Origin: Chryseobacterium indologenes
GTDB lineage: Bacteria; Bacteroidota; Bacteroidia; Flavobacteriales; Weeksellaceae
Direction of reading: 5' to 3'
NCBI GenBank assembly: GCA_016025055.1
Contig: CP065590.1
Location: 4,774,001-4,838,000, forward strand
DNA: 64,000 nt
Part shown: positions 9,942-52,791 of the stretch, piece by piece
How the letters are laid out: every line of letters starts with the position of its first letter
Numbering within the stretch: the first letter of the stretch is position 1
The notes under the pieces: model-generated
The model's input: the letters and a program-made list of their open reading frames with translations, nothing else
What the model was told of the DNA's origin: nothing
Database searches by the model: none
Translations under genes and position numbers: made by a program

Positions 9942-10538
9942 CTAAAGACAAATTTTCCCGTTGAGTATACATAAATGATTTTCCTGTTCCAACTTTTTCA
10001 CTGTTCTGACAACTGTTTCCAAACGAAGTCCGGTAATATCCGCTATCTGTTGCCTGCTGAATGGCACGATATACATAAAGGGCTCTTCCACTTTATCATG
10101 ATTTTTCAGAAAATGTAAAACGCCTAAAACCCTTTTTGCGGAACTGCTCGTCGAGAGCAAATCAAGCATTTTATAACGATAGAACATTCTTTCTGCAGTA
10201 TAAGCCATTACATTATTGAGTAATGAAGAATTTGAGTTGATCAAATGCATAAAGTCTGGCTTTGGCAGTTTAATGATTTTTGCTTCGGTAATTGCTACTG
10301 CATTTATACAATATGGCGTCTCATGCCATAGAAAGGTTTCTGCAAAACAGTGTCCTTCTGATGGCAGACTGTAGATGATTTCGCTACCGTCATCTCTGTA
10401 TGTATTGAGTTTAACAATTCCCGAAATAATCTGAAAATAAAACTTAGGTAAAGAACCGTCCAGCAGTATTGATTCTTTTGCACCATATATTTGAACTTCA
10501 CCACCATTTCCAAGTAGTACCTCTTCATCAATTACCAT
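9942..10538 (-). CDS. Crp/Fnr-family transcriptional regulator
   Basis: A 198-residue regulator with an N-terminal cyclic-nucleotide-binding-type beta-barrel (about 15-115; GIVKLNTYRDDGSEIIYSL and GHCFAETFLW) and a C-terminal Crp-type winged helix (about 150-190; FSRQQIADITGLRLETVVRTV, close to the Crp recognition helix). No Fnr-type N-terminal cysteine cluster is present. It is transcribed opposite to the flanking DUF892 and 104-residue genes. Its targets may be the neighbouring stress genes, but no operator was identified. Confidence 0.9.
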   Translation of the reverse strand: MVIDEEVLLGNGGEVQIYGAKESILLDGSLPKFYFQIISGIVKLNTYRDDGSEIIYSLPSEGHCFAETFLWHETPYCINAVAITEAKIIKLPKPDFMHLINSNSSLLNNVMAYTAERMFYRYKMLDLLSTSSSAKRVLGVLHFLKNHDKVEEPFMYIVPFSRQQIADITGLRLETVVRTVKKLEQENHLCILNGKICL

Positions 10539-10742
10539 TATAATTTATATAAAATTCTTACAACTGAAATCCCGCCAGACTGTTCTCAAAAGCTGATAAT
10601 ATTCAGAAAACACCATCCCTGATTGCTGGCCGGGATCAAATAGTATCCACTGATTTTCTATGCGATACAGCACCACCGTAAAATATACCACATTTTAACT
10701 ATTGGCAAAATAATTGTAATTATATTAACAAATATCTATCGC

Positions 10743-11057
10743 ATGAATAATACAGTAAAAATAGCATTAATATTCGTAACCGGAGGTTATTTACTTTATC
10801 TGGGTTCACGAAAAAAAAGCCGGAAGAAAAAATCATTCATCGCTCCAGATGGAGTTACTTATACAGAAGATACGATTTATCGTTCCTATGATAATAAATT
10901 GTATAAAAATGGCAAGGAAATTCATTTTAAAACTCCGGAACTTTATGACGTTTCTTATCAACATTGGTATGATAATGCAGGTGAAAAGATTCCTGTAAAG
11001 CAAAGAAAAATAAGTAAGGAGGTAATCTACCACCATAAAGGACTACGGCACCAATAA
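10743..11057 (+). CDS. Small membrane-anchored hypothetical protein
   Basis: 104 residues, N-terminal helix VKIALIFVTGGYLLYLG followed by a strongly basic KKSRKKKS stop-transfer segment, so it is probably a type I/II single-pass inner-membrane protein with a soluble tail rich in Y, K and H. The family is not recognised. The tail YTEDTIYRSYDNKLYKNGKEIHF looks beta-rich. It lies 44 nt before the small lmo0937-type gene and may be co-transcribed with it. Confidence 0.6.
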   Translation: MNNTVKIALIFVTGGYLLYLGSRKKSRKKKSFIAPDGVTYTEDTIYRSYDNKLYKNGKEIHFKTPELYDVSYQHWYDNAGEKIPVKQRKISKEVIYHHKGLRHQ

Positions 11058-41923: not shown

Positions 41924-42928
41924 TTATTTTTTCACCAGCTCCACTCTACGGTTTTGTGCCTTCCCTTCTTCGGATCCATTATCCGCCATCGGGTTTTTGC
42001 TTCCGAAACCCTCAGCTGAAAGCCTTGTTTTATCAATGCCTGAAGTGGCGATCGCATTCAATACCGCTGTAGCGCGGTCTTTTGAGAGCTGGAGATTGTG
42101 GGCATCGTTTCCGCTGTTATCGGTATAGCCGTTAATGGCCAATTTTAGGTTGTTATCGCTTTTCAGGACTTTTGTGATTTCATCTACGGCTTTTTTGCCA
42201 TCGGGCTGTAAGCTCGCTTTATCGGTATCAAAATTAATATGCAATACCGCCTTGCCTTTTGTATCCAATTCTTTTTTATGTCATCAGATTTTAAGATGGA
42301 AATCGTTTGTTTAAACGGTGCTTTCTGTAAAATTTGTATTGCTCCGGTCGAAGTATTTCCATAGAGCTGAATATAAATATCATCACCATTTGGTCTTCTT
42401 ATGACATACACTTTTACAGGTTCGTTCCAATAATCTATAGAGCCTTCTTCGCCAAAATATTTGGCTTCAGGTTGTATTCTGTCGAGCTCCTGTTGGGAAA
42501 CTTTACCATCAAATATTTTCACACCACCCACTTTTGTAATCAGCGTCATCATAGCTTTTCAGAAAATAGGGCAGCGACCATTCTTCTGTATTGCTTTTCT
42601 CGTTGACTATATATGTCTTCCATACTTTTCCTTCTATTGGTGTCATTACGTCTTTAAGAGGAAAAAATAACATATCATAGCTTCTTTGTACCGGTTTGTT
42701 TTGGAATTCCAGTCCTTTAGGCAGGCTAAAAAAGGGAAGTTCGCCCACTTCAGCGGTGGAAACCGGAATGGAGTTGATATCAAATTGAGTTTCTCCCGGA
42801 GATTTTTCTGTACCTGCAGTATTTCCTATGGCGACACTGTCCTTTGCAGCCTCTGTTTTCTGTTCAGTCTTTTTGTTGCAGGCACCGAGTAAAGCGCCTA
42901 TTGATAGAATAATCAGCGTTTTTTTCAT
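41924..42928 (-). pseudogene. OmpA-family lipoprotein, broken by two frameshifts
   Basis: Lipoprotein signal with lipobox LGAC (MKKTLIILSIGALLGACNKK), a middle domain, and a C-terminal OmpA peptidoglycan-binding domain (VLHINFDTDKASLQPDGKKAVDEI, INGYTDNSGNDAHNLQLSKDRATAVLNAI, SEEGKAQNRRVELVKK). The three parts lie in three frames. Removing one T from 42532-42535 joins the first two (DYKVGGVKIFDGKV) and adding one T to 42272-42277 joins the last two (SDDIKKELDTKGKAVLHI). The repaired protein is about 335 residues and would anchor the outer membrane to the wall. Confidence 0.85.
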
Positions 42929-43235: not shown

Positions 43236-44024
43236 ATGAAGTTAGAATTATATCAGATAGATGCCTTTACAGACAAGGTCTTCCATGGAAACCCTGCGTG
43301 TGTTGTTCCTTTAAAAAATTGGTTACCCGATGAAACCCTCTTACAAATAGCCAAGGAAAATGCCGTAGCAGAAACAGCTTTCTTTATTAATAATGGTGAT
43401 ACTATTCATTTGAGATGGTTTACTCCTGAAATCGAAATGGATCTATGCGGGCATGCTACTCTTGCTACGGCTCATTGCCTGGCCTCCATCTTAAATTATC
43501 CGAACAACAGAATCGTTTTTGAAACCAAAAGCGGCGAATTAACGATTGATGTGAAAGACGGATTTTATTATATGGACTTCCCGTCAAGAATGCCTGAAAC
43601 ATCCACTCTTCCTGATGAGATAAGCCGATCTCTTACTGTACAGCCTAAGGAAGTATTCAAATCGAGAGACTATGTTCTGGTATATGAATCTGAGAAAGAT
43701 ATAAAAAATATAAAAGTTGACCAATCCATTCTGGACCTTATCAATCTGGATCCGGGAGGTGTTGTGGTGACCGCAGCAGGCAGTGACAGTGATTTTGTTT
43801 CAAGATATTTCACACCGCAGTCATCGATCCTTGAAGATCCTGTAACGGGCTCTGCGCACTGCTCACTCATTCCGTTCTGGTCAGCAAGATTAGGAAAAAA
43901 CACGCTTTTTGCCAGACAGCTATCAGAAAGAGGCGGTGAACTCTTCTGTGAAAACAAAAATGAAAGAGTAATTGTAGCGGGTAAAGCCAGAACATACTCT
44001 ACAGGACATTTATGGATAGACTAA
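43236..44024 (+). CDS. PhzF-family isomerase
   Basis: 262 residues with the PhzF/diaminopimelate-epimerase-like fold: DAFTDKVFHGNPACVVPL at the start, EMDLCGHATLATAHCL (about 69) and EDPVTGSAHCSLIPFW (about 203). No phenazine genes are around. This is the single-gene form common in bacteria, of uncertain substrate. Confidence 0.9.
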   Translation: MKLELYQIDAFTDKVFHGNPACVVPLKNWLPDETLLQIAKENAVAETAFFINNGDTIHLRWFTPEIEMDLCGHATLATAHCLASILNYPNNRIVFETKSGELTIDVKDGFYYMDFPSRMPETSTLPDEISRSLTVQPKEVFKSRDYVLVYESEKDIKNIKVDQSILDLINLDPGGVVVTAAGSDSDFVSRYFTPQSSILEDPVTGSAHCSLIPFWSARLGKNTLFARQLSERGGELFCENKNERVIVAGKARTYSTGHLWID

Positions 44025-44204: not shown

Positions 44205-45362
44205 TTATTCTTTCAAAGCTTTTTTCAGGCGTTCAAGGCCTTCCTTCAGAACTGCCCTCGGACATCCGATATTGATTCTTAGAAAGCCTTCACCACTTTT
44301 ACCATACATCGTTCCCGAATTGAGCCAGACTTTTCCCTTCATCAAAAGAATCTTCGACAATTCATCAGAAGTTATACCGAACGCTCTGCAATCCAGCCAA
44401 ACCAGATAGGTAGCTTCCAAAGGAATCACTTTAATTTCCGGCAACTCTTCACTGCAAAAATTTTCCAGCAATATAAAGTTCTCATACAGATAATTTTTCA
44501 GCTCATGCTTCCATTCATATCCTTTGGTATAGGCCGCCATCAAAGCTTCCATCGCAATGGGGTTAGCATAACAGTTCTCCTGAAGCTCTAAAGTTTTAAA
44601 AGTCTGTTCCAATATAGCTTTATCCTGGGAAATAAGATATGATACGGGCATCCCTGAAAAATTAAAAGTCTTGCAGGGCGAGCCGCAAGTCACGGATTGA
44701 AGGTCATAGTCGCGGGCAACCGAAACAAACGGAATATGCTTTCGGTCATTAAAAATCAAGTCAGAATGAATTTCATCAGAAACCACCATTACCTTATTCC
44801 GTGAACAGATCTCAGCTATTTTTTCTAAATCCTCTCTGGTCCATACTTTTCCGACCGGGTTATGAGGATTACAAAGTAACAGGAGTTTCGTTTTGGGGTC
44901 CGAAGCTTTTTTCTCCAGATCATCAAAATCAATCGTATAGTTTCCGGCTTCGTATTTCAGATCATTGCAAACAATAGAACACCCGTAATTTTCTAAAATG
45001 GAAAAAAAATGATTATAAACAGGAGGCTGCAAAATAATCTTTTCGTCGGGCCTCACAAAAGTACGGATGATGGCCGAAATGGAGGGCAGAACTCCCGTCG
45101 CAGGTAAGAGCCAGTCTTTTTCTATTCTAAAATTATGGTTCGTCTCCCACCAATCAATGACTGAATCATGAAAATTTTTAGGAATGGTACCATATCCGAA
45201 AATACCATGTAACACTTTTTCAGAGATAGCCTGAATCACTTCCGGAGCAGTTTGGAAATCCATATCAGCCACCCACATGGGTAAAATATCTTCTTTACCC
45301 CAATCCCACTTTACGGAATGACTTCCTCTTCTCTCTATGATTTTGTCGAAATTGTATTTCAT
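44205..45362 (-). CDS. MalY/PatB-family PLP-dependent C-S lyase
   Basis: 385 residues, fold-type I aminotransferase-like enzyme. MWVADMDFQTAPEV near the N-terminus is diagnostic for PatB/MalY, followed by NPHNPVGKVWTREDL and the PLP lysine in CGSPCKTFNFSG (about 233). The family cleaves C-S bonds of cysteine conjugates. It follows the binding-protein gene of the egt operon by 8 nt on the same strand. Hercynylcysteine sulfoxide lysis (EgtE step) is also a PLP-dependent C-S beta-lyase reaction, so this gene could supply that activity; otherwise it is a cystathionine beta-lyase. Confidence 0.9.
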   Translation of the reverse strand: MKYNFDKIIERRGSHSVKWDWGKEDILPMWVADMDFQTAPEVIQAISEKVLHGIFGYGTIPKNFHDSVIDWWETNHNFRIEKDWLLPATGVLPSISAIIRTFVRPDEKIILQPPVYNHFFSILENYGCSIVCNDLKYEAGNYTIDFDDLEKKASDPKTKLLLLCNPHNPVGKVWTREDLEKIAEICSRNKVMVVSDEIHSDLIFNDRKHIPFVSVARDYDLQSVTCGSPCKTFNFSGMPVSYLISQDKAILEQTFKTLELQENCYANPIAMEALMAAYTKGYEWKHELKNYLYENFILLENFCSEELPEIKVIPLEATYLVWLDCRAFGITSDELSKILLMKGKVWLNSGTMYGKSGEGFLRINIGCPRAVLKEGLERLKKALKE

Positions 45363-45370
45363 TTAGGTCG

Positions 45371-46285
45371 TTATTTTGAATCCAGATAATTTTTGAGGTC
45401 TGAAATATTCGTAATCTTAAGCTCCCGTGCCTGCTGTCTCCGCATCATCAGGGCATAAGCATTATTAAATCCAAGCGGTTTCAGCCATTCGATACCGTAT
45501 TGTTTCCGGAATTCCATATTCACGTAATCAAACGTCTTTTCCGGGCTTTTAGATACTTCTTCTACAGTTTTTGCAGAAGGTTTCAGCAAAACCAAAAGTC
45601 CGGTTCCGGTGTATTCGGGATAGAAATCGATTGCATCATTCATCAGGGCGTCAAAGCAAATTTTGGTTCCTCCGAGCCCTGTTTTAGTCTCCACTTTATA
45701 ATCAGTGTACCCTTCAATGAGCATTTTGTAAATTTCGGTAAGAATATACTGTTCACCAAAAATTTTTGATCCGATTTTTATGGTTTGTGAATTTCCTTTG
45801 CGCGGATCTTTATATAAATTCATTTTTACTAAAAAATCTCTGGCAATTTTCTCAGGGCTTTCTTTAAGATAATCAGCCTTATAATTCAGATCTGTCATGA
45901 TGGAATCATTGAAATTTCCTGAGACAAGATCCAATGTTTTTTCTAATTCAGGAAACTTTGCCAATGTTTTTGTCTTGATGACCGGAGCGGCAAAATAAGG
46001 AGGGAAAATCTTCTTATCGTCGTTCAGAACATATAAGTCAAAAGCTTTGATTCTTCCGTCTGTAGAGTATCCGCTGATCAGGTCCAATTCTTTTTCGTAA
46101 GCTGCCTTATACATAATGGCATCACTTACCACGAGAGGATGTGCATCCAGACCATATACCGACCGAAGTCCGAGGTCGCCATCCTGCCTTCCCATAAATT
46201 CGGGTGTAAAACCAGCCTTAAGTTTATGATCCGGGGCTGAAGTCAGAAGATAAATTACACCCATGATCACCAATAGGGCAGGCAC
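45371..46285 (-). CDS. Osmoprotectant-type (OpuBC/EgtU-like) substrate-binding domain, separated by a frameshift from its permease
   Basis: 304 residues of the QAT-type glycine-betaine-binding fold: FMGRQDGDLGLRSVYGL, IGSKIFGEQYILTEIYKMLIE, TGLGGTKICFDALMNDAIDFYPEYTGTG and a C-terminal KPLGFNNAYALMMRRQQARELKITNISDLKN. Its first residues (PALLVIMGVIYLLTSA) are a membrane helix. One extra T in the run 46297-46303 joins it in frame to the permease gene as SVKKIQYIVPALLVIMG, giving a 520-residue permease-binding-protein fusion like OpuB-C fusions and EgtU. Ligand not proven. Confidence 0.85.
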   Translation of the reverse strand: MPALLVIMGVIYLLTSAPDHKLKAGFTPEFMGRQDGDLGLRSVYGLDAHPLVVSDAIMYKAAYEKELDLISGYSTDGRIKAFDLYVLNDDKKIFPPYFAAPVIKTKTLAKFPELEKTLDLVSGNFNDSIMTDLNYKADYLKESPEKIARDFLVKMNLYKDPRKGNSQTIKIGSKIFGEQYILTEIYKMLIEGYTDYKVETKTGLGGTKICFDALMNDAIDFYPEYTGTGLLVLLKPSAKTVEEVSKSPEKTFDYVNMEFRKQYGIEWLKPLGFNNAYALMMRRQQARELKITNISDLKNYLDSK

Positions 46286-46935
46286 AATATATTGTATTTT
46301 TTTACCGACTTGTAGCTCAATTTCTGTAACACAGCGATAGTCTGGTCCAGAACAACAGCCAGTAAAGCCGCCGGAATTGCTCCCGCCAGAATCATATTGG
46401 TATTGTTCAGTGAAATTCCCCCAAAAATAAATTCCCCCAAACCGCCTGCAGCAACAAAGGAAGCCAGGGTTGCCACTCCCACATTGATGACAGCCGCCGT
46501 CCTGATGCCTGCAATGATTACCGGCATTGCTAAAGGAAGCTCAACTTTGAAAAGCCTTTGTGTTCTGTTCATTCCCATTGCTTTGGCTGCTTCAGTCACC
46601 GCCGGATCTACTTCTGTGATTCCTGTATAAGTATTTCTGATGATGGGTAAAAGGGCATAAATCAGTAAGGCTACAATGGCCGGAGTAGCTCCGATTCCGA
46701 ACGCGGGAATCATAAAACCCAGCAAAGCAATGCTCGGGATGGTTTGTAAAATTCCTGCTATTCCTAAAACAGAACCTGATAGTTTTCTTTTCCGGGCAAT
46801 TAAAATCCCCAAGGGTACACCGATAATGATGGCCAGAAACAGAGACAAAAAAGTAAGTCCCAGATGCTGAACAACCTGCGTGAGCAATTTTTCGTGTTGT
46901 TCGGTAATAAATTGCCAAAAATTCTGCTCACTCAT
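46267..46935 (-). CDS. ABC permease (OpuBB/EgtU-like), C-terminus frameshifted
   Basis: 222 residues with five or six helices. BPD_transp_1 signature EAAKAMGMNRTQRLFKVELPLAMPVIIAGIRTAAVINVGVATLASFVAAGGLG (EAA motif, about 135-190). The frame ends YNILCLPYW just where a linker helix is expected; restoring one T in 46297-46303 continues into the binding-protein domain. Start overlaps the ATPase gene by 4 nt. Inner membrane. Confidence 0.88.
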   Translation of the reverse strand: MSEQNFWQFITEQHEKLLTQVVQHLGLTFLSLFLAIIIGVPLGILIARKRKLSGSVLGIAGILQTIPSIALLGFMIPAFGIGATPAIVALLIYALLPIIRNTYTGITEVDPAVTEAAKAMGMNRTQRLFKVELPLAMPVIIAGIRTAAVINVGVATLASFVAAGGLGEFIFGGISLNNTNMILAGAIPAALLAVVLDQTIAVLQKLSYKSVKKYNILCLPYW

Positions 46936-47852
46936 ACGGTCTGAAATTTTCGGTATTCATTAAAAGCTTTAACCAGATTTTCATAGTCTGCGGAAAGCGA
47001 AATATCTGCACTCAATCGTTGCAGAGCATCCCAGACCGCAGTATTTTCTGAAAGCCCAAGGTCGTCATATAAGCGACTGCCCTCCATTAGCAGTTTCACA
47101 TCTTTCAGGCTGGCTACTTTATACTCCAGTAAAAGCTTGTTTTTAGCAAAAAAATTTTTAACAAAATCATTTTCAGGATAGTATAACATTTCTTTTGGAG
47201 TTCCGGTCTGAATAATTTTTCCCTTATCCATCAGGCAAATCTTATGACCTAAGTCAAATGCTTCCTGAACGTCATGAGTAACGAGAATAATGGTTTTACT
47301 TTTAAGTTCTTCCAGTGATTTGAATTCTGCATGAATATCGGCTTTGGTGATAGTATCCAACGCTCCGAACGGTTCATCCATCAGTAAAACGGGTGAATCT
47401 GCAATCAGGGCGCGTGCAATTCCTACTCGTTGTTGCTGTCCACCGCTTAATTCATGGGGAAACCTGGAAAGCAGTTCTTCCGAAAGATGAAGCTTGTGTA
47501 ATAGCTCCAGAGTTCTTTCGACTGTCTTTTTCCTGTTCCACTTCAACAGGTCAGGAACAACCGCAATATTCCGTTGAATGGTATAATGAGGAAACAATCC
47601 GGAATGCTGCATCACAAAACCAATCCCCATCCGTACGTCTTCCACTTTCTGCGACCGAATATTCCTGCCGTTGATCAAAATACTCCCGGAATCAGCTTCA
47701 ATCAGGCGGTTTATCATTTTCAATGTGGTTGTCTTTCCGCAACCGCTCGTTCCCAGCAGCACCAAAACTTCCCTGGCGTCCGCCTGGAAGGAAATGGCAT
47801 CGACTGCTTTTTTTCCGTTAAAACTTTTTGAAACTGATTCAACTGTAATCAT
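46932..47852 (-). CDS. ABC transporter ATP-binding protein (OpuBA/EgtV-like)
   Basis: 306 residues from the preferred ATG 47852 (MITVESVSKSF); an upstream start at 47894 adds 14 non-family residues that overlap egtB. Walker A GTSGCGKTTT (about 35), Q-loop MQHSGLF, ABC signature LSGGQQQRVGIARAL, Walker B PVLLMDEPFGALD, His switch VTHDVQEAF. A C-terminal extension follows (about 240-306) instead of full CBS domains. Cytoplasmic energizer of the permease / binding-protein fusion downstream. It is transcribed directly after egtB. Confidence 0.9.
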   Translation of the reverse strand: MITVESVSKSFNGKKAVDAISFQADAREVLVLLGTSGCGKTTTLKMINRLIEADSGSILINGRNIRSQKVEDVRMGIGFVMQHSGLFPHYTIQRNIAVVPDLLKWNRKKTVERTLELLHKLHLSEELLSRFPHELSGGQQQRVGIARALIADSPVLLMDEPFGALDTITKADIHAEFKSLEELKSKTIILVTHDVQEAFDLGHKICLMDKGKIIQTGTPKEMLYYPENDFVKNFFAKNKLLLEYKVASLKDVKLLMEGSRLYDDLGLSENTAVWDALQRLSADISLSADYENLVKAFNEYRKFQTV

Positions 47853-47860
47853 AGGCCAAA

Positions 47861-49057
47861 TTATTGTGCAAGTCTGATTCCTGTAAACTGCCACTTGAGG
47901 TGGGTCTGGAAAAAATTCCGATAGGTGTTTCTGCTGTGTCCGGCAGGTGTGGCTACCGAAGAACCGCGCAATACCATTTGATTTACCATAAATTTCCCGT
48001 TATATTCTCCGACAGCGCCGGCTTCTTTTTTAAATCCGGGATACGGAAGATAGGCAGAATGAGTCCACTCCCATCTTTTTCCCCAGTCGAAAGATTCTGA
48101 TGCCACTTCCCATTCGGCTTCGGTTGGGAGACGTTTTCCTTTCCACGAAGCAAAAGCAGAAGCTTCGAAAAAATTGATATGGCAGACTGCTTCTTCTAAA
48201 TCGACTTCCTGTAACCCGTTGAGCGTATAATTCATCCATTTACCATCGATAAAGTACCAGTATAAAGGAGATTTTGCGTTATTTTGCCGCACCCAGTCCC
48301 ATCCTTCGGCATGCCAGTACCTAAAGTCTTCATAACCACCGTCTTCGATAAATTCGAGATATTCCCTGTTGGTCACTAACTGATTGCAGATTGTAAAATC
48401 ATCCAGATACACTTTATGTCTTCCCAGTTCGTTATCAAAGCAAAAACCTTCACCCTTAAAACCAATTTCATAAATTCCTGCGGAAAAATGAAGCATTTCT
48501 GAGGTTTCGGTTTGTTGTTTTTGTACAGTATTTTCCTTTTTATAGGCAGGAAATAACGGATTGTGTCCTAAAATATATTTAATGTCTGTCAGTAACAATT
48601 CCTGATGCTGCTGTTCGTGGTTTAACCCTAATTCCAGTAATGGCTCCAAGGATTCTGTAAGATAGCCATTCTGAAGAAATTCGGTCATCTTCCGATCCAC
48701 ATATTCTCGGTATTTAAATACATCTGAAACGGAAGGGCGGCTCAGATTGCCCCTATCAGTACGGATAACGCGGGCTCCTATGGTTTCATAATAACTGTTG
48801 AACACAAAGTTGTACTGAGGATCAAAAACTTCGTAATCCGGAAAATTGGGCTGTAAAATAAATGTTTCAAAAAACCACGTTGTGTGGCCTAAATGCCATT
48901 TTGGAGGGCTTACATCAACGACGGGCTGAACGACATAATCTTCTATTTCCAAAGAGCGGCAGATCTCAACGGAATGATTCCGGATTTCCGAAAATTTCTT
49001 CAACCGGCGGGTATGAGGCATTGTTTTTGGGAATAAAGCATCTTTTTTCATAAACAA
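47861..49057 (-). CDS. egtB: Ergothioneine biosynthesis protein EgtB (sulfoxide synthase)
   Basis: 398 residues. N-terminal DinB-like iron-binding domain: KWHLGHTTWFFE (His55/His58) and LNHEQQHQELLLTDI (HxxxH, about 157), the three-His iron site. C-terminal formylglycine-generating-enzyme-like domain: LGRHKVYLDDFTI, RLPTEAEWEVASESFDW and the ending MVLRGSSVATPAGHSRNTYRNFF and LKWQFTGIRLA. EgtB joins hercynine to cysteine or gamma-glutamylcysteine with O2. No egtA or egtC is adjacent, so the direct-cysteine type is likely. Eleven bases separate it from egtD. Confidence 0.95.
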   Translation of the reverse strand: MFMKKDALFPKTMPHTRRLKKFSEIRNHSVEICRSLEIEDYVVQPVVDVSPPKWHLGHTTWFFETFILQPNFPDYEVFDPQYNFVFNSYYETIGARVIRTDRGNLSRPSVSDVFKYREYVDRKMTEFLQNGYLTESLEPLLELGLNHEQQHQELLLTDIKYILGHNPLFPAYKKENTVQKQQTETSEMLHFSAGIYEIGFKGEGFCFDNELGRHKVYLDDFTICNQLVTNREYLEFIEDGGYEDFRYWHAEGWDWVRQNNAKSPLYWYFIDGKWMNYTLNGLQEVDLEEAVCHINFFEASAFASWKGKRLPTEAEWEVASESFDWGKRWEWTHSAYLPYPGFKKEAGAVGEYNGKFMVNQMVLRGSSVATPAGHSRNTYRNFFQTHLKWQFTGIRLAQ

Positions 49058-49067
49058 TCTTTTTAAA

Positions 49068-50048
49068 TTATACCATCCAGATCGAGTCTACAAACCAGTT
49101 TTTAGCGTCTTTAACTTCCATAAGGATATGAAAACCAGAATCTGCGGCCAGTTTTTTGATATCCTGTTCCGAGAATTTCTGAGAAATTTCCATATCGATC
49201 AGTTCATTTTCTTTGAAATGAAACGAATGGCCTGCGACCTGAACCTCCTGATCACAAAGACTTACCAGAAAGCTCCTGCAAGCACCTGAAACGGGGTCAT
49301 AATTCTGATAATGCTGAAACTGATCTACCTTGAAATCGGCTTTCAGCTCATGATTGATCCTGGTCAGGAGATTAAGGTTAAACGAAGCGGTAATACCCGC
49401 AGGATCATTATATGCTGCAAGAATCGTATGTGGGTTTTTCTTGAGATCAAAGCCTACCAGAAATAAATCTCCGGTATTGAGTTTCCTTTTCACCTCGCTG
49501 CAGAAATGTCTGGCTTCTTCTATTTCCATATTGCCAATATTGCCGCCCAAGAAAAGCACTACTTTTTTTCTTTTTGAAATGCCGGTGGCTTTATCAAGCA
49601 TATCAAAATAGTCACCTTCCAACGGAAAAATTTCCAGGTCAGGTAACTTTTTCTTTAGGTTCTGCTGCAAAACATTGAGAATATTACCTGAGATGTCGAT
49701 GGGCATGTAGGTAAAATCCGTTCCTTTGTCTACTAAATTTTTAAGGAGATAAGAAGATTTCATAGCATCTCCTGCTCCCATTTCTATAAGGTCAAAAGAC
49801 TCATTGATATTGGAAATTGCCCTGGTGAGTTCTTCTGTTTTATTTTGAAAAATTTCCAGCTCACAATTGGTAAGGTAGTACTCCGGCATCGCCATAATCT
49901 GTTGAAAAAGGCGGTCTCCTGTTGTATCATAAAAATATTTTGAAGATAATTTTTTCGGATCAGCGGACAGGCCTTTTAAAACGTCTGAATGAAAAGTCTG
50001 GGCACGGTCATTTTTAAGATAATAATCCTGTTTTAACTGTCTATTCAT
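49068..50048 (-). CDS. egtD: L-histidine N-alpha-methyltransferase EgtD
   Basis: 326 residues. SAM-dependent enzyme that trimethylates histidine to hercynine, the first step of ergothioneine synthesis. Signature elements: LSSKYFYDTTGDRLFQQIMAMPEYYLTNCELEI (family start), LIEMGAGDAMKSSYLL (SAM motif, about 85), YMPIDIS, FLGGNIGNMEIEEARHF and YNDPAGITASFNLNLLTRINHEL. It starts the operon egtD-egtB-transporter-lyase. Confidence 0.96.
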   Translation of the reverse strand: MNRQLKQDYYLKNDRAQTFHSDVLKGLSADPKKLSSKYFYDTTGDRLFQQIMAMPEYYLTNCELEIFQNKTEELTRAISNINESFDLIEMGAGDAMKSSYLLKNLVDKGTDFTYMPIDISGNILNVLQQNLKKKLPDLEIFPLEGDYFDMLDKATGISKRKKVVLFLGGNIGNMEIEEARHFCSEVKRKLNTGDLFLVGFDLKKNPHTILAAYNDPAGITASFNLNLLTRINHELKADFKVDQFQHYQNYDPVSGACRSFLVSLCDQEVQVAGHSFHFKENELIDMEISQKFSEQDIKKLAADSGFHILMEVKDAKNWFVDSIWMV

Positions 50049-50401: not shown

Positions 50402-52791
50402 ATGAGAAATCTATTCTTTTTATTGCTTGTATCAATGGGACAGCCTGTACTGGCACAAACCAAACTGGAAAAAGCAATCACCAATCTGGAAAAAAATTAT
50501 CAACAGGAAAAGGTATACTTACTGACTGACAAAACCCAATATGCGGCGGGGGACAAAATATGGTTTAAAAGTTTTGTATTCGACGGATACAACCGTTCTG
50601 CATTATCGACTACTCTGTTTGTGGAATTGTATAATTCTGATAAAAAATTAATAGACTGGAAAACAATACTTCTCACCAACGGAGAAGGCAGTGGTGATTT
50701 CCAATTGAAAGAAAGCCTCCCTGAGCAGGTTTATTTTGTAAGGGCTTACACGCCTTATATGACCAATTTTAATGAAGACTTTCAGGTTGTAAAAAGTATC
50801 CCGGTTTACAATCCCGATTCTCCTGAATCTCTGGTAATTTCCAAAAGCTCTGACTGGTCTGCAAAAGCTTTTCCGGAAGGTGGAACTTTCATTAACGGTA
50901 TTCCCACAAAATTTGCTGTAAGACTATCATCTGACACCTCTCTGCCCGAAAACTGGAGTGGAAAAGTGGTTGATACCGAAAAACCCAATGTCGCCATCAC
51001 TACATTTAAAGCTTTTGATAGAAATGTGGGATCTTTTACCCTAACTCCAACTTCGGGAAAAAAATACCAGGTTATCATTCAGGATCATACCGGAAAAATT
51101 AAAACAACAGATCTGCCGCAAGTCTCGGACAGCGGTCTCCATCTTGAAGTCAACAGCTCCAAGGACGGGATTAAGTATAGCTTAAAAGGTGTAAATCTGA
51201 AACAGCAACTTCAGCATTATAAAATCGTTGGAACGATCAGCAACCACCTTGCTTATAAAGCCAACATCAACCAGTTGATCAATGAAGTTTCAAGCGTTAT
51301 TCCTACCAAAATCAGCAATGGGGCCAACGGCATTTTGCAATTAGCCATTTTTGATGATCAGGACAATCTGGTGGCTCAAAGACTTTGCTTTATAAAACCC
51401 GATAACCTGAAAATTGAGAAAGCAGAAATTATAGACCGAAGCATCAAACAGACGCCAAGATCTTTTAACAGCATCGATCTTTCTCCGGAGTCTTATTTTA
51501 AAAATTATACTGTTTTGGTAAGTGAGGATGACGGCAGCAATAAGGCAGACGAAGAAAATATCCTGAGCGGACTTTGGCTCACAGGGGATTTTACTTCAAA
51601 AATAGACAGCCCGGCACAATATTTTTCGAATAATGCCAATACTGAAGCCCTGGATGCTCTTCTTATTTCTGAAAAATGGAAAAGATTTGACTGGAATTCC
51701 GTGCTTAGCGGAACTATACCTACCATTCACACCCTTTCGCAACAGTTTCTTTCATACAAGATCAAACCTATTAAAAATAACGGACTGGTGATTAATGCCA
51801 ACGTCAATCTGATGTTGAAAATGGGCAAAGAGGAGCCTGTGATCAATCAGTTTATAACAGACCAAAACGGATACGTTTATTTGAATAATCTCAATAATGA
51901 CGAACCTGTGAATGTTTCTTTATTTGTAAATTCGGAAAATAAGGAATCTGGTAATAATGATTTATTCGTCACCGCCGAACCTTTGGTAAATCCTACTCCT
52001 TTTAATGGCAATTTCCCGGGCACGAAATATATCCTTACAAAACCTGCCGGAAATAAAACGCTTCCACCAGCAATTGCCAGAGCAATCAATACGCAAAAAA
52101 ATAATAGGAAAATAGAGAATGCTGAGATAGAAATTGAGCAGATAAAATTGGTAGGAAAAAGAAAGATCCCAAAGAAGAGTTGGATAAGCAGCTATCTACG
52201 GGCATGTTCAGCTCCGGAAATTCTACGATATTTGATTTTGTCAATGAGGATCAGCATACGTCAGGAGCTGTGAATATTTTAGACTGGCTTCAGGGAAGAG
52301 CGGCCGGTTTAACGTTCCAGAGAAACAGTTCAGGGGTAAATGTACCTTCTATACGTGGGCAACAAGCTAAATTGTATCTGGATGAAATGCCTACAGACGC
52401 AGATATGATTGCCAATATCCCGGTAAACAATATTGCCATGGTAAAGATTCTTAAAGGAGCCGGATTGGTAGGTAACGCCGTAGCAGTCTATACCATGAAG
52501 GGGAATATGAAATCCAAGAGCAAAGAAACACAAACGCAAAAGAACAACTCAGCGGTCATAAAAGGCTATGATAAACCCTCGGATTTCCCGATTGGAATGA
52601 TAGATGATGACGCGAAAATTGAAAAAGATACCCGCGAAACACTGTACTGGAATCCTAATTTGTTTGACAGCGATTACGTTCCGCCAAGAATCAAATTTTT
52701 CAACAACGACATTGGTAAACAATATAGGGTGCTGATCATCAGCTTTGATGAAGATGACCATCTTCTTTATGACCAGCAAATACTGAAATAA
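50402..52791 (+). pseudogene. MG2-domain / TonB-plug-like exported protein, frameshifted
   Basis: Signal peptide (ends VLA), then LEKNYQQEKVYLLTDKTQYAAGDKIWFKSFVFDG, an alpha-2-macroglobulin-type MG2 segment of Bacteroidota, several beta-rich domains, and at the C-terminus a TonB-plug-like region (VNILDWLQGRAAGLTFQ, YLDEMPTDADMIANIPVNNIAMVKIL). The first frame stops at 52273; the second begins before 52180. Adding one A to the run 52156-52160 merges them as VGKKKDPKEELDKQLSTG, giving about 796 residues. No barrel follows. It presumably assists an outer-membrane surface complex; function unknown. Confidence 0.82.

Follow-up and report, generated by a model that had tools for sequence, protein, structure and literature searches.

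Import of ergothioneine has been described for EgtU of Streptococcus pneumoniae, in which an ATPase serves a permease fused to its substrate-binding domain, and EgtU was described in bacteria that are unable to make ergothioneine (PMC9732360; here and below, statements credited to an article by its PMC number rest on parts of that article). For synthesis, the EgtB of Chloracidobacterium has been reviewed as preferring cysteine (PMC10903977) and as having both EgtB- and Egt1-type activity (PMC9103826). We describe here an operon from a 64,000-nt stretch of Chryseobacterium indologenes DNA (contig CP065590.1, positions 4,774,001 to 4,838,000; hereafter the window) in which, in contrast to the described setting of EgtU, genes for a related ATP-binding cassette (ABC) transporter lie together with the synthesis genes egtD and egtB, and with a gene for a PatB-type C-S lyase.

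On balance we think it probable that this operon provides for synthesis of a histidine betaine and for import, or re-import, of ergothioneine or hercynine. EgtD would methylate histidine to hercynine, EgtB would join hercynine to cysteine as a sulfoxide, and the PatB-type lyase, replacing EgtE, would split the sulfoxide to ergothioneine. Together, the ATPase and the permease-binding fusion would act as an ABC importer resembling EgtU and OpuF and would take up a quaternary amine of the pathway, most likely ergothioneine itself (through recapture of leaked product or scavenging) and next most likely hercynine. Gene content and order of the operon, its linkage across genomes, the permutation of the binding-domain lobes and the letters of the binding pocket were confirmed; enzyme activities, direction of transport and substrate are what we infer.

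Gene content of the operon and its linkage across genomes

The genes run egtD-egtB-ATPase-permease-binding domain-patB on the minus strand, and the joints between them are, in this order, a 10-nt gap, a 5-nt gap, a 4-nt overlap, two overlapping frames (permease and binding domain) and an 8-nt gap. The egtD product (49068..50048, 326 aa), an L-histidine N-alpha-methyltransferase with domain PF10017, scored 299.8 bits against TIGR03438 (cut-off 290.9), and the egtB product, a sulfoxide synthase (47861..49057, 398 aa as listed; the start used in relatives corresponds to 49051 instead of 49057), scored 546.3 bits against TIGR03440 (cut-off 360). The ATPase (46932..47855, 307 aa; in the list its open reading frame, ORF, begins further upstream, at a GTG at 47894) is of the betaine/choline class, contains PF00005 and scored 277.8 bits with the proV model TIGR01186, under its cut-off of 326.6. 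The permease (46267..46935, 222 aa in its own frame; PF00528, 104.3 bits) forms the first part of the fusion, and the second part is a circularly permuted substrate-binding domain behind a transmembrane helix (45371..46285, 304 aa in its own frame), which matches PF04069 in two stretches. The last gene encodes the PatB-type, pyridoxal-phosphate (PLP)-dependent C-S lyase (44205..45362, 385 aa; TIGR04350, 431.8 bits, cut-off 340), a candidate stand-in for EgtE. ORF coordinates, short joints and family scores bear out the operon that had been proposed in a preliminary description of the window.

The genome (G000) is a single 4.92-Mb contig, 97% complete. It was compared with a phylum sample of 395 Bacteroidota genomes, with 148 genomes of its family, the Weeksellaceae, and with 80 named loci, the best of the 586 relatives that a permuted query sequence found. 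The phylum and family genomes overlap with the named loci (G506, for example, is the genome of L123), so that their counts are not additive; all 80 named loci are permuted because they were selected with a permuted query; and the Fisher p-values that we give are too small because the genomes are related.

In the phylum sample, egtB exceeded the cut-off in 113 of 395 genomes, whereas it was present in 20 of the 22 genomes that carry the permuted transporter, the other two having egtD, and in 25 of the 31 that carry a transporter of usual lobe order (p ~5e-10 for each form). The preliminary description had held that its reading would be refuted if transporter and lyase occurred mostly without egtBD; for the transporter this check was run, and it did not refute the reading. 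Thirteen of the 22 permuted genomes have egtB and the transporter in one same-strand run, and in a further one (G348) egtB lies on the strand of the transporter but is separated from it by three genes, one of them egtD; among the 31 usual-order genomes, egtB is within ~4 kb of the transporter in 6, divergently in 3 of these. Linkage in the family was complete: egtB was found in 34 of the 148 genomes and the permuted transporter in 17, and all 17 transporters are in one cluster with egtB (p 3e-13). At the named loci egtB adjoins the transporter in 76 of 80, upstream in 29 (Chryseobacterium, Epilithonimonas, Flavobacterium and Sphingobacterium) and downstream in 47 (Mucilaginibacter, Pedobacter and others). 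The remaining four have egtD only (L188) or neither gene (L142, L196 and L199) beside the transporter, and the genomes of all four hold both genes. We also observed that the genome of L142 (G534, C. caseinilyticum) has two copies each of egtB and egtD, none of them beside the transporter, and that L160, on one short contig of a metagenome-assembled genome, has egtB fragments in both orientations, probably through misassembly.

Sulfur donor and candidate lyase

The closest solved structures to the egtB product were those of Chloracidobacterium thermophilum EgtB (8qf6, 6qki and 6o6l, ~422 bits; the next structure scored 135), with likeness over nearly the whole length. An HxxxHxE-like stretch, which we take to provide the iron ligands, and a neighbouring Arg-rich segment, whose role is likewise our assumption, align with the window protein with the arginines unchanged. 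The model for SenA also matched, at 355.4 bits, under its cut-off of 420. EgtA and EgtC had no match anywhere in the genome, in keeping with the absence of egtA and egtC noted in the preliminary description, and this result, together with the kinship to Chloracidobacterium EgtB, suggests that the window EgtB uses cysteine directly as its sulfur donor.

No protein of the genome exceeded the cut-off of the EgtE family, TIGR04343; the best match, 38.9 bits against a cut-off of 400, was at a place other than the operon. The mycobacterial EgtE of that family and the window PatB share PLP dependence and the step proposed for them, but PatB belongs to TIGR04350, within aminotransferase class I/II. 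Operon-type PatB (at least 58% identity) was found in 12 of the 148 family genomes, and egtB was present in all 12 (p 4e-9). In 11 of these carriers patB is in the egtB cluster, and in 10 it adjoins the binding domain. Two carriers depart from the arrangement seen in the window: in G474 patB comes directly after egtB and the 16 kb around contain no transporter, and in G519 patB is on another contig and the transporter is reduced to an ATPase remnant. Thirteen other family genomes lack egtB, and their PatB is more distant (38-42%). A 26-row tree set the operon group, of 14 rows including two Flavobacterium copies, apart from 10 of those 13 with support of 83/98, which is middling. Among the named loci, PatB at 45% identity or more is present in 8 of 80, and L140 has a 64-codon remnant.

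The suggestion that the PLP lyase fits the missing EgtE step was strengthened by this distribution, and PatB appears to be a good candidate for an EgtE-like role outside the EgtE family. Alternatively, it could be an ordinary cystathionine or cysteine-conjugate beta-lyase, present in the operon by chance or for supply of cysteine. The protein scores above the cut-off of the general PatB model, the solved structures nearest to it are of cystathionine or cysteine-conjugate lyases, the fork that separates the operon group has middling support, and 22 of the 34 family genomes with egtB have no operon-type PatB. Against this stand the co-occurrence with egtB in every carrier, which extends to the transporter-less cluster of G474, and the finding that the PatBs of the egtB-less genomes are the distant ones; there is also a precedent, in that a PLP beta-lyase from Erwinia tasmaniensis completed ergothioneine synthesis in vitro (PMC9103826). 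We regard the ordinary-lyase explanation as unlikely, though not remote.

The permuted binding domain and the substrate of the transporter

Alignments of EgtUC, the binding domain of EgtU, to the window domain came in swapped order, with the C-lobe first (about residues 20-159 of the binding-domain frame) and the N-lobe second (about residues 165-304), and not N-lobe before C-lobe as in EgtU. The predicted structure of the domain had a mean pLDDT of 89.3, and structural matches agreed with the swapped lobes. Both systems pair an ATPase with a protein that unites a permease and an OpuAC-type binding domain (the fusion being frame-broken in the window copy), and their lobes are homologous, the C-lobes with 41% identity; yet the window domain is permuted and differs in the pocket by G244F, T274G, F293Y and Y337F (EgtU as given in PMC9732360). 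The preliminary description had called the transporter exactly the EgtUV fusion. That likeness holds for the architecture, but "exactly" has to be given up, the domain being circularly permuted and without the three residues of EgtU ergothioneine specificity, and we rejected direct orthology with EgtU because of the lobe order and these three pocket letters.

The lobe order of OpuAC has reportedly been noted in print; none of the words searched for occurs in PMC2861598. OpuAC of Bacillus subtilis (2b4m), which binds glycine betaine and proline betaine, is only 14% identical to the window domain and has a tryptophan cage (PMC9732360, PMC2861598) where the window has tyrosines. A plasmid search returned 289 records; among the 30 matches listed, 24 were in two pieces, of which the order was not shown, and 6 were single pieces covering 33-46% of the query, and none of the 30 (of 289) had both lobes in one piece, a result that is no test of other phyla.

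We took the definition of the EgtUC pocket from PMC9732360. In S. pneumoniae it consists of K242, I243, G244, T274, T275, F293, T296, Y337, N339, Y341, E375, R379, Y419 and Y443, and the window has K, I, F, G, T, Y, T, F, N, Y, E, R, Y and Y at the same positions. The aromatic cage (N339, Y341, Y419 and Y443, with K242, T296, E375 and R379) is thus kept, in the window as in the 21 permuted loci that were read. A clear betaine-type cage had been named in the preliminary description as an argument against ergothioneine; the cage is indeed there, but it cannot decide the substrate because EgtU has the same cage (PMC9732360). Across 40 Bacteroidota loci (21 permuted and 19 of usual order), position 244 was F in 34 and Q in 4 (one genus, L060-L063) of the 38 that were readable, and G in none; position 293 was Y and position 337 was F in all 39 readable loci. 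Among the 120 closest proteins, position 244 was F in all 120 and position 293 was Y in 119, the motif not being found in one.

The structure 1sw1 is taken to be AfProX, the glycine-betaine binder of Archaeoglobus fulgidus, because its Y63 and F107 fall where PMC9732360 places them. Its letters equal those of the window at positions 242, 244, 274, 275, 293, 296, 337 and 341; of the nine N-lobe positions that were compared, the only one to differ is 339, with D in place of the window N. Its lobes are in the usual order. To our knowledge, AfProX is not encoded in an egt operon.

Several of these observations weigh against coupled synthesis and import of ergothioneine. The markers G244, F293 and Y337 are absent from the window, where F, Y and F, the AfProX states, take their places, and G244F alone cut ergothioneine binding by SpEgtUC (the S. 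pneumoniae domain) ~100-fold (PMC9732360). Six of the 22 genomes with the permuted transporter carry egtB away from it, and in two more, G081 (L063) and G364 (L061), we found egtD near the transporter and no match to egtB; the latter two may make hercynine and either leave it unsulfurised or sulfurise it by another enzyme. Operon-type PatB is missing from most family genomes with egtB, as given above, and neither form of the transporter is present in 68 of the 113 phylum-sample genomes that have egtB, so that it is not required for synthesis. With regard to the pocket, however, relatives without the markers, including the group of Helicobacter pylori, can still aid uptake at lower affinity (PMC9732360). 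Given both the G244F effect and these relatives, the pocket speaks against a high-affinity site of the EgtU type and yet is compatible with ergothioneine.

The pocket could also be read as that of an importer for the osmolytes glycine betaine and proline betaine that has no more to do with ergothioneine synthesis than a shared regulation under stress. The agreement with AfProX at the eight positions, and the prevalence of F at 244 across the Bacteroidota loci, are what this reading would predict. It does not easily accommodate the near-constant linkage to egtB and egtD in two different gene orders, or the disulfide reductase that neighbours the transporter in related operons (see below). Moreover, a second OpuAC-type binding protein (216.5 bits) is encoded elsewhere in the genome beside a permease and the end of an ATPase, by eye a probable ProVWX-like system of the glycine-betaine type, so that osmolyte uptake need not depend on the operon transporter. 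We therefore consider an osmolyte importer rather improbable.

To about the same low degree we credit an importer that takes hercynine and not ergothioneine, and so would feed EgtB and save three methylations. F244 occupies the spot beside the water network around the thioimidazole of EgtUC (PMC9732360) and may suit a ligand without the thione, and G081 and G364 pair the permuted transporter with egtD in the apparent absence of egtB. Yet the imidazole of hercynine is no different, binding of hercynine by SpEgtUC and SaEgtUC is very poor (PMC9732360), and most carriers have egtD and so make their own hercynine. We know of no hercynine-selective binding site.

Returning to ergothioneine as substrate, we put forward a wider scheme as a possibility that falls short of even chances: a closed ergothioneine economy in Bacteroidota, all run from one locus, with cysteine-type synthesis, a PatB recruited to do the work of EgtE, and an EgtU-like importer that recaptures the product and whose binding domain became permuted in an event separate from that of OpuAC; the version found in Pedobacter and Mucilaginibacter would add a flavoprotein that reduces oxidised ergothioneine. 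If this were so, import of ergothioneine would be a trait of makers too, and a betaine-type pocket would have been the means to it. Finding an importer linked to synthesis prompts the question of whether it serves recapture, scavenging or uptake of a precursor. In the operon there is also a candidate for the lyase that cysteine-type pathways lack, and its relatives point to a candidate ergothioneine-redox flavoprotein; the natural circular permutation is useful for studying closure and docking of binding domains, and the operons may serve in ergothioneine production.

The frame break and genes of related operons

The permease and binding domain occupy two frames in the window. An intact single permease-binding ORF of 521-522 aa was present in 5 of 5 relatives compared, and permease and binding domain form one ORF in 79 of the 80 named loci, the 80th (L185) being cut by the end of its contig; the fusion that the preliminary description reached by frame repair is thereby corroborated. 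A second window gene, 50402-52791 (plus strand), is likewise split over two frames and is whole (798 aa) in two relatives. The weak EgtE-like match elsewhere in the genome is split over frames as well. The break thus appears peculiar to this assembly, and because the second nearby gene is also broken here and whole in relatives, assembly error is the likeliest and simplest cause, with mutation in the strain as the alternative. Programmed frameshifting at a run of A is not supported, since the junctions are read in one frame and another window gene is broken too: runs of at least 7 A occur in the 80-base junction of 12 of the 80 named loci, all read in one frame, and are missing from L123-L152, the first 30 in the list, which are almost all nearest kin. 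Separately, three overlapping frames at window positions 41924-42928 (minus strand) look by eye like one gene for an OmpA-type lipoprotein broken twice.

A flavin disulfide oxidoreductase of ~460 aa, with domains PF07992 and PF02852 in the three copies scanned, is encoded upstream of the transporter genes, at a distance of no more than 700 bp, in 43 of the 80 named loci (for example, L199:3934-5316, plus strand). At a 44th locus, L196, the gene is on the opposite strand, past the binding domain. Of the 47 loci that have egtB downstream, 41 carry the gene, and 5 of the 6 that do not are on contigs cut upstream; it was absent from all 29 loci in which egtB lies upstream, as in the window. Its places were L045-L052, L086, L216 and 44 of the loci L151-L201; at L086 it is beside egtB-egtD with no transporter there. 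For two copies, the nearest among the best 25 of 58 and of 57 NCBIfam families were PRK06370, lipoamide dehydrogenase, RclA and MerA, each under its cut-off. Because of its linkage to the operon, our guess is that the enzyme reduces oxidised ergothioneine, as a candidate for redox recycling. Neither this operon nor a permuted EgtU nor an ergothioneine reductase was a subject in the titles and abstract openings of the top literature matches, and the phrase "ergothioneine reductase" had 0 occurrences in the article texts searched.

One family genome, G527 (L216), has a run of egtD-reductase-ATPase-permease-binding domain-egtB that resembles the Mucilaginibacter and Pedobacter types, and its operon was possibly acquired by horizontal transfer. 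A protein with DUF427 (PF04248) is encoded directly after egtD at three loci of one genus (L060:14319-14807, L061:14944-15441 and L063:6397-6885) and beside the ATPase at a locus of the usual form (L069, near 10374-10853). In the window itself, a convergent gene for a PhzF-family isomerase (43236-44024, plus strand) was excluded from the operon.

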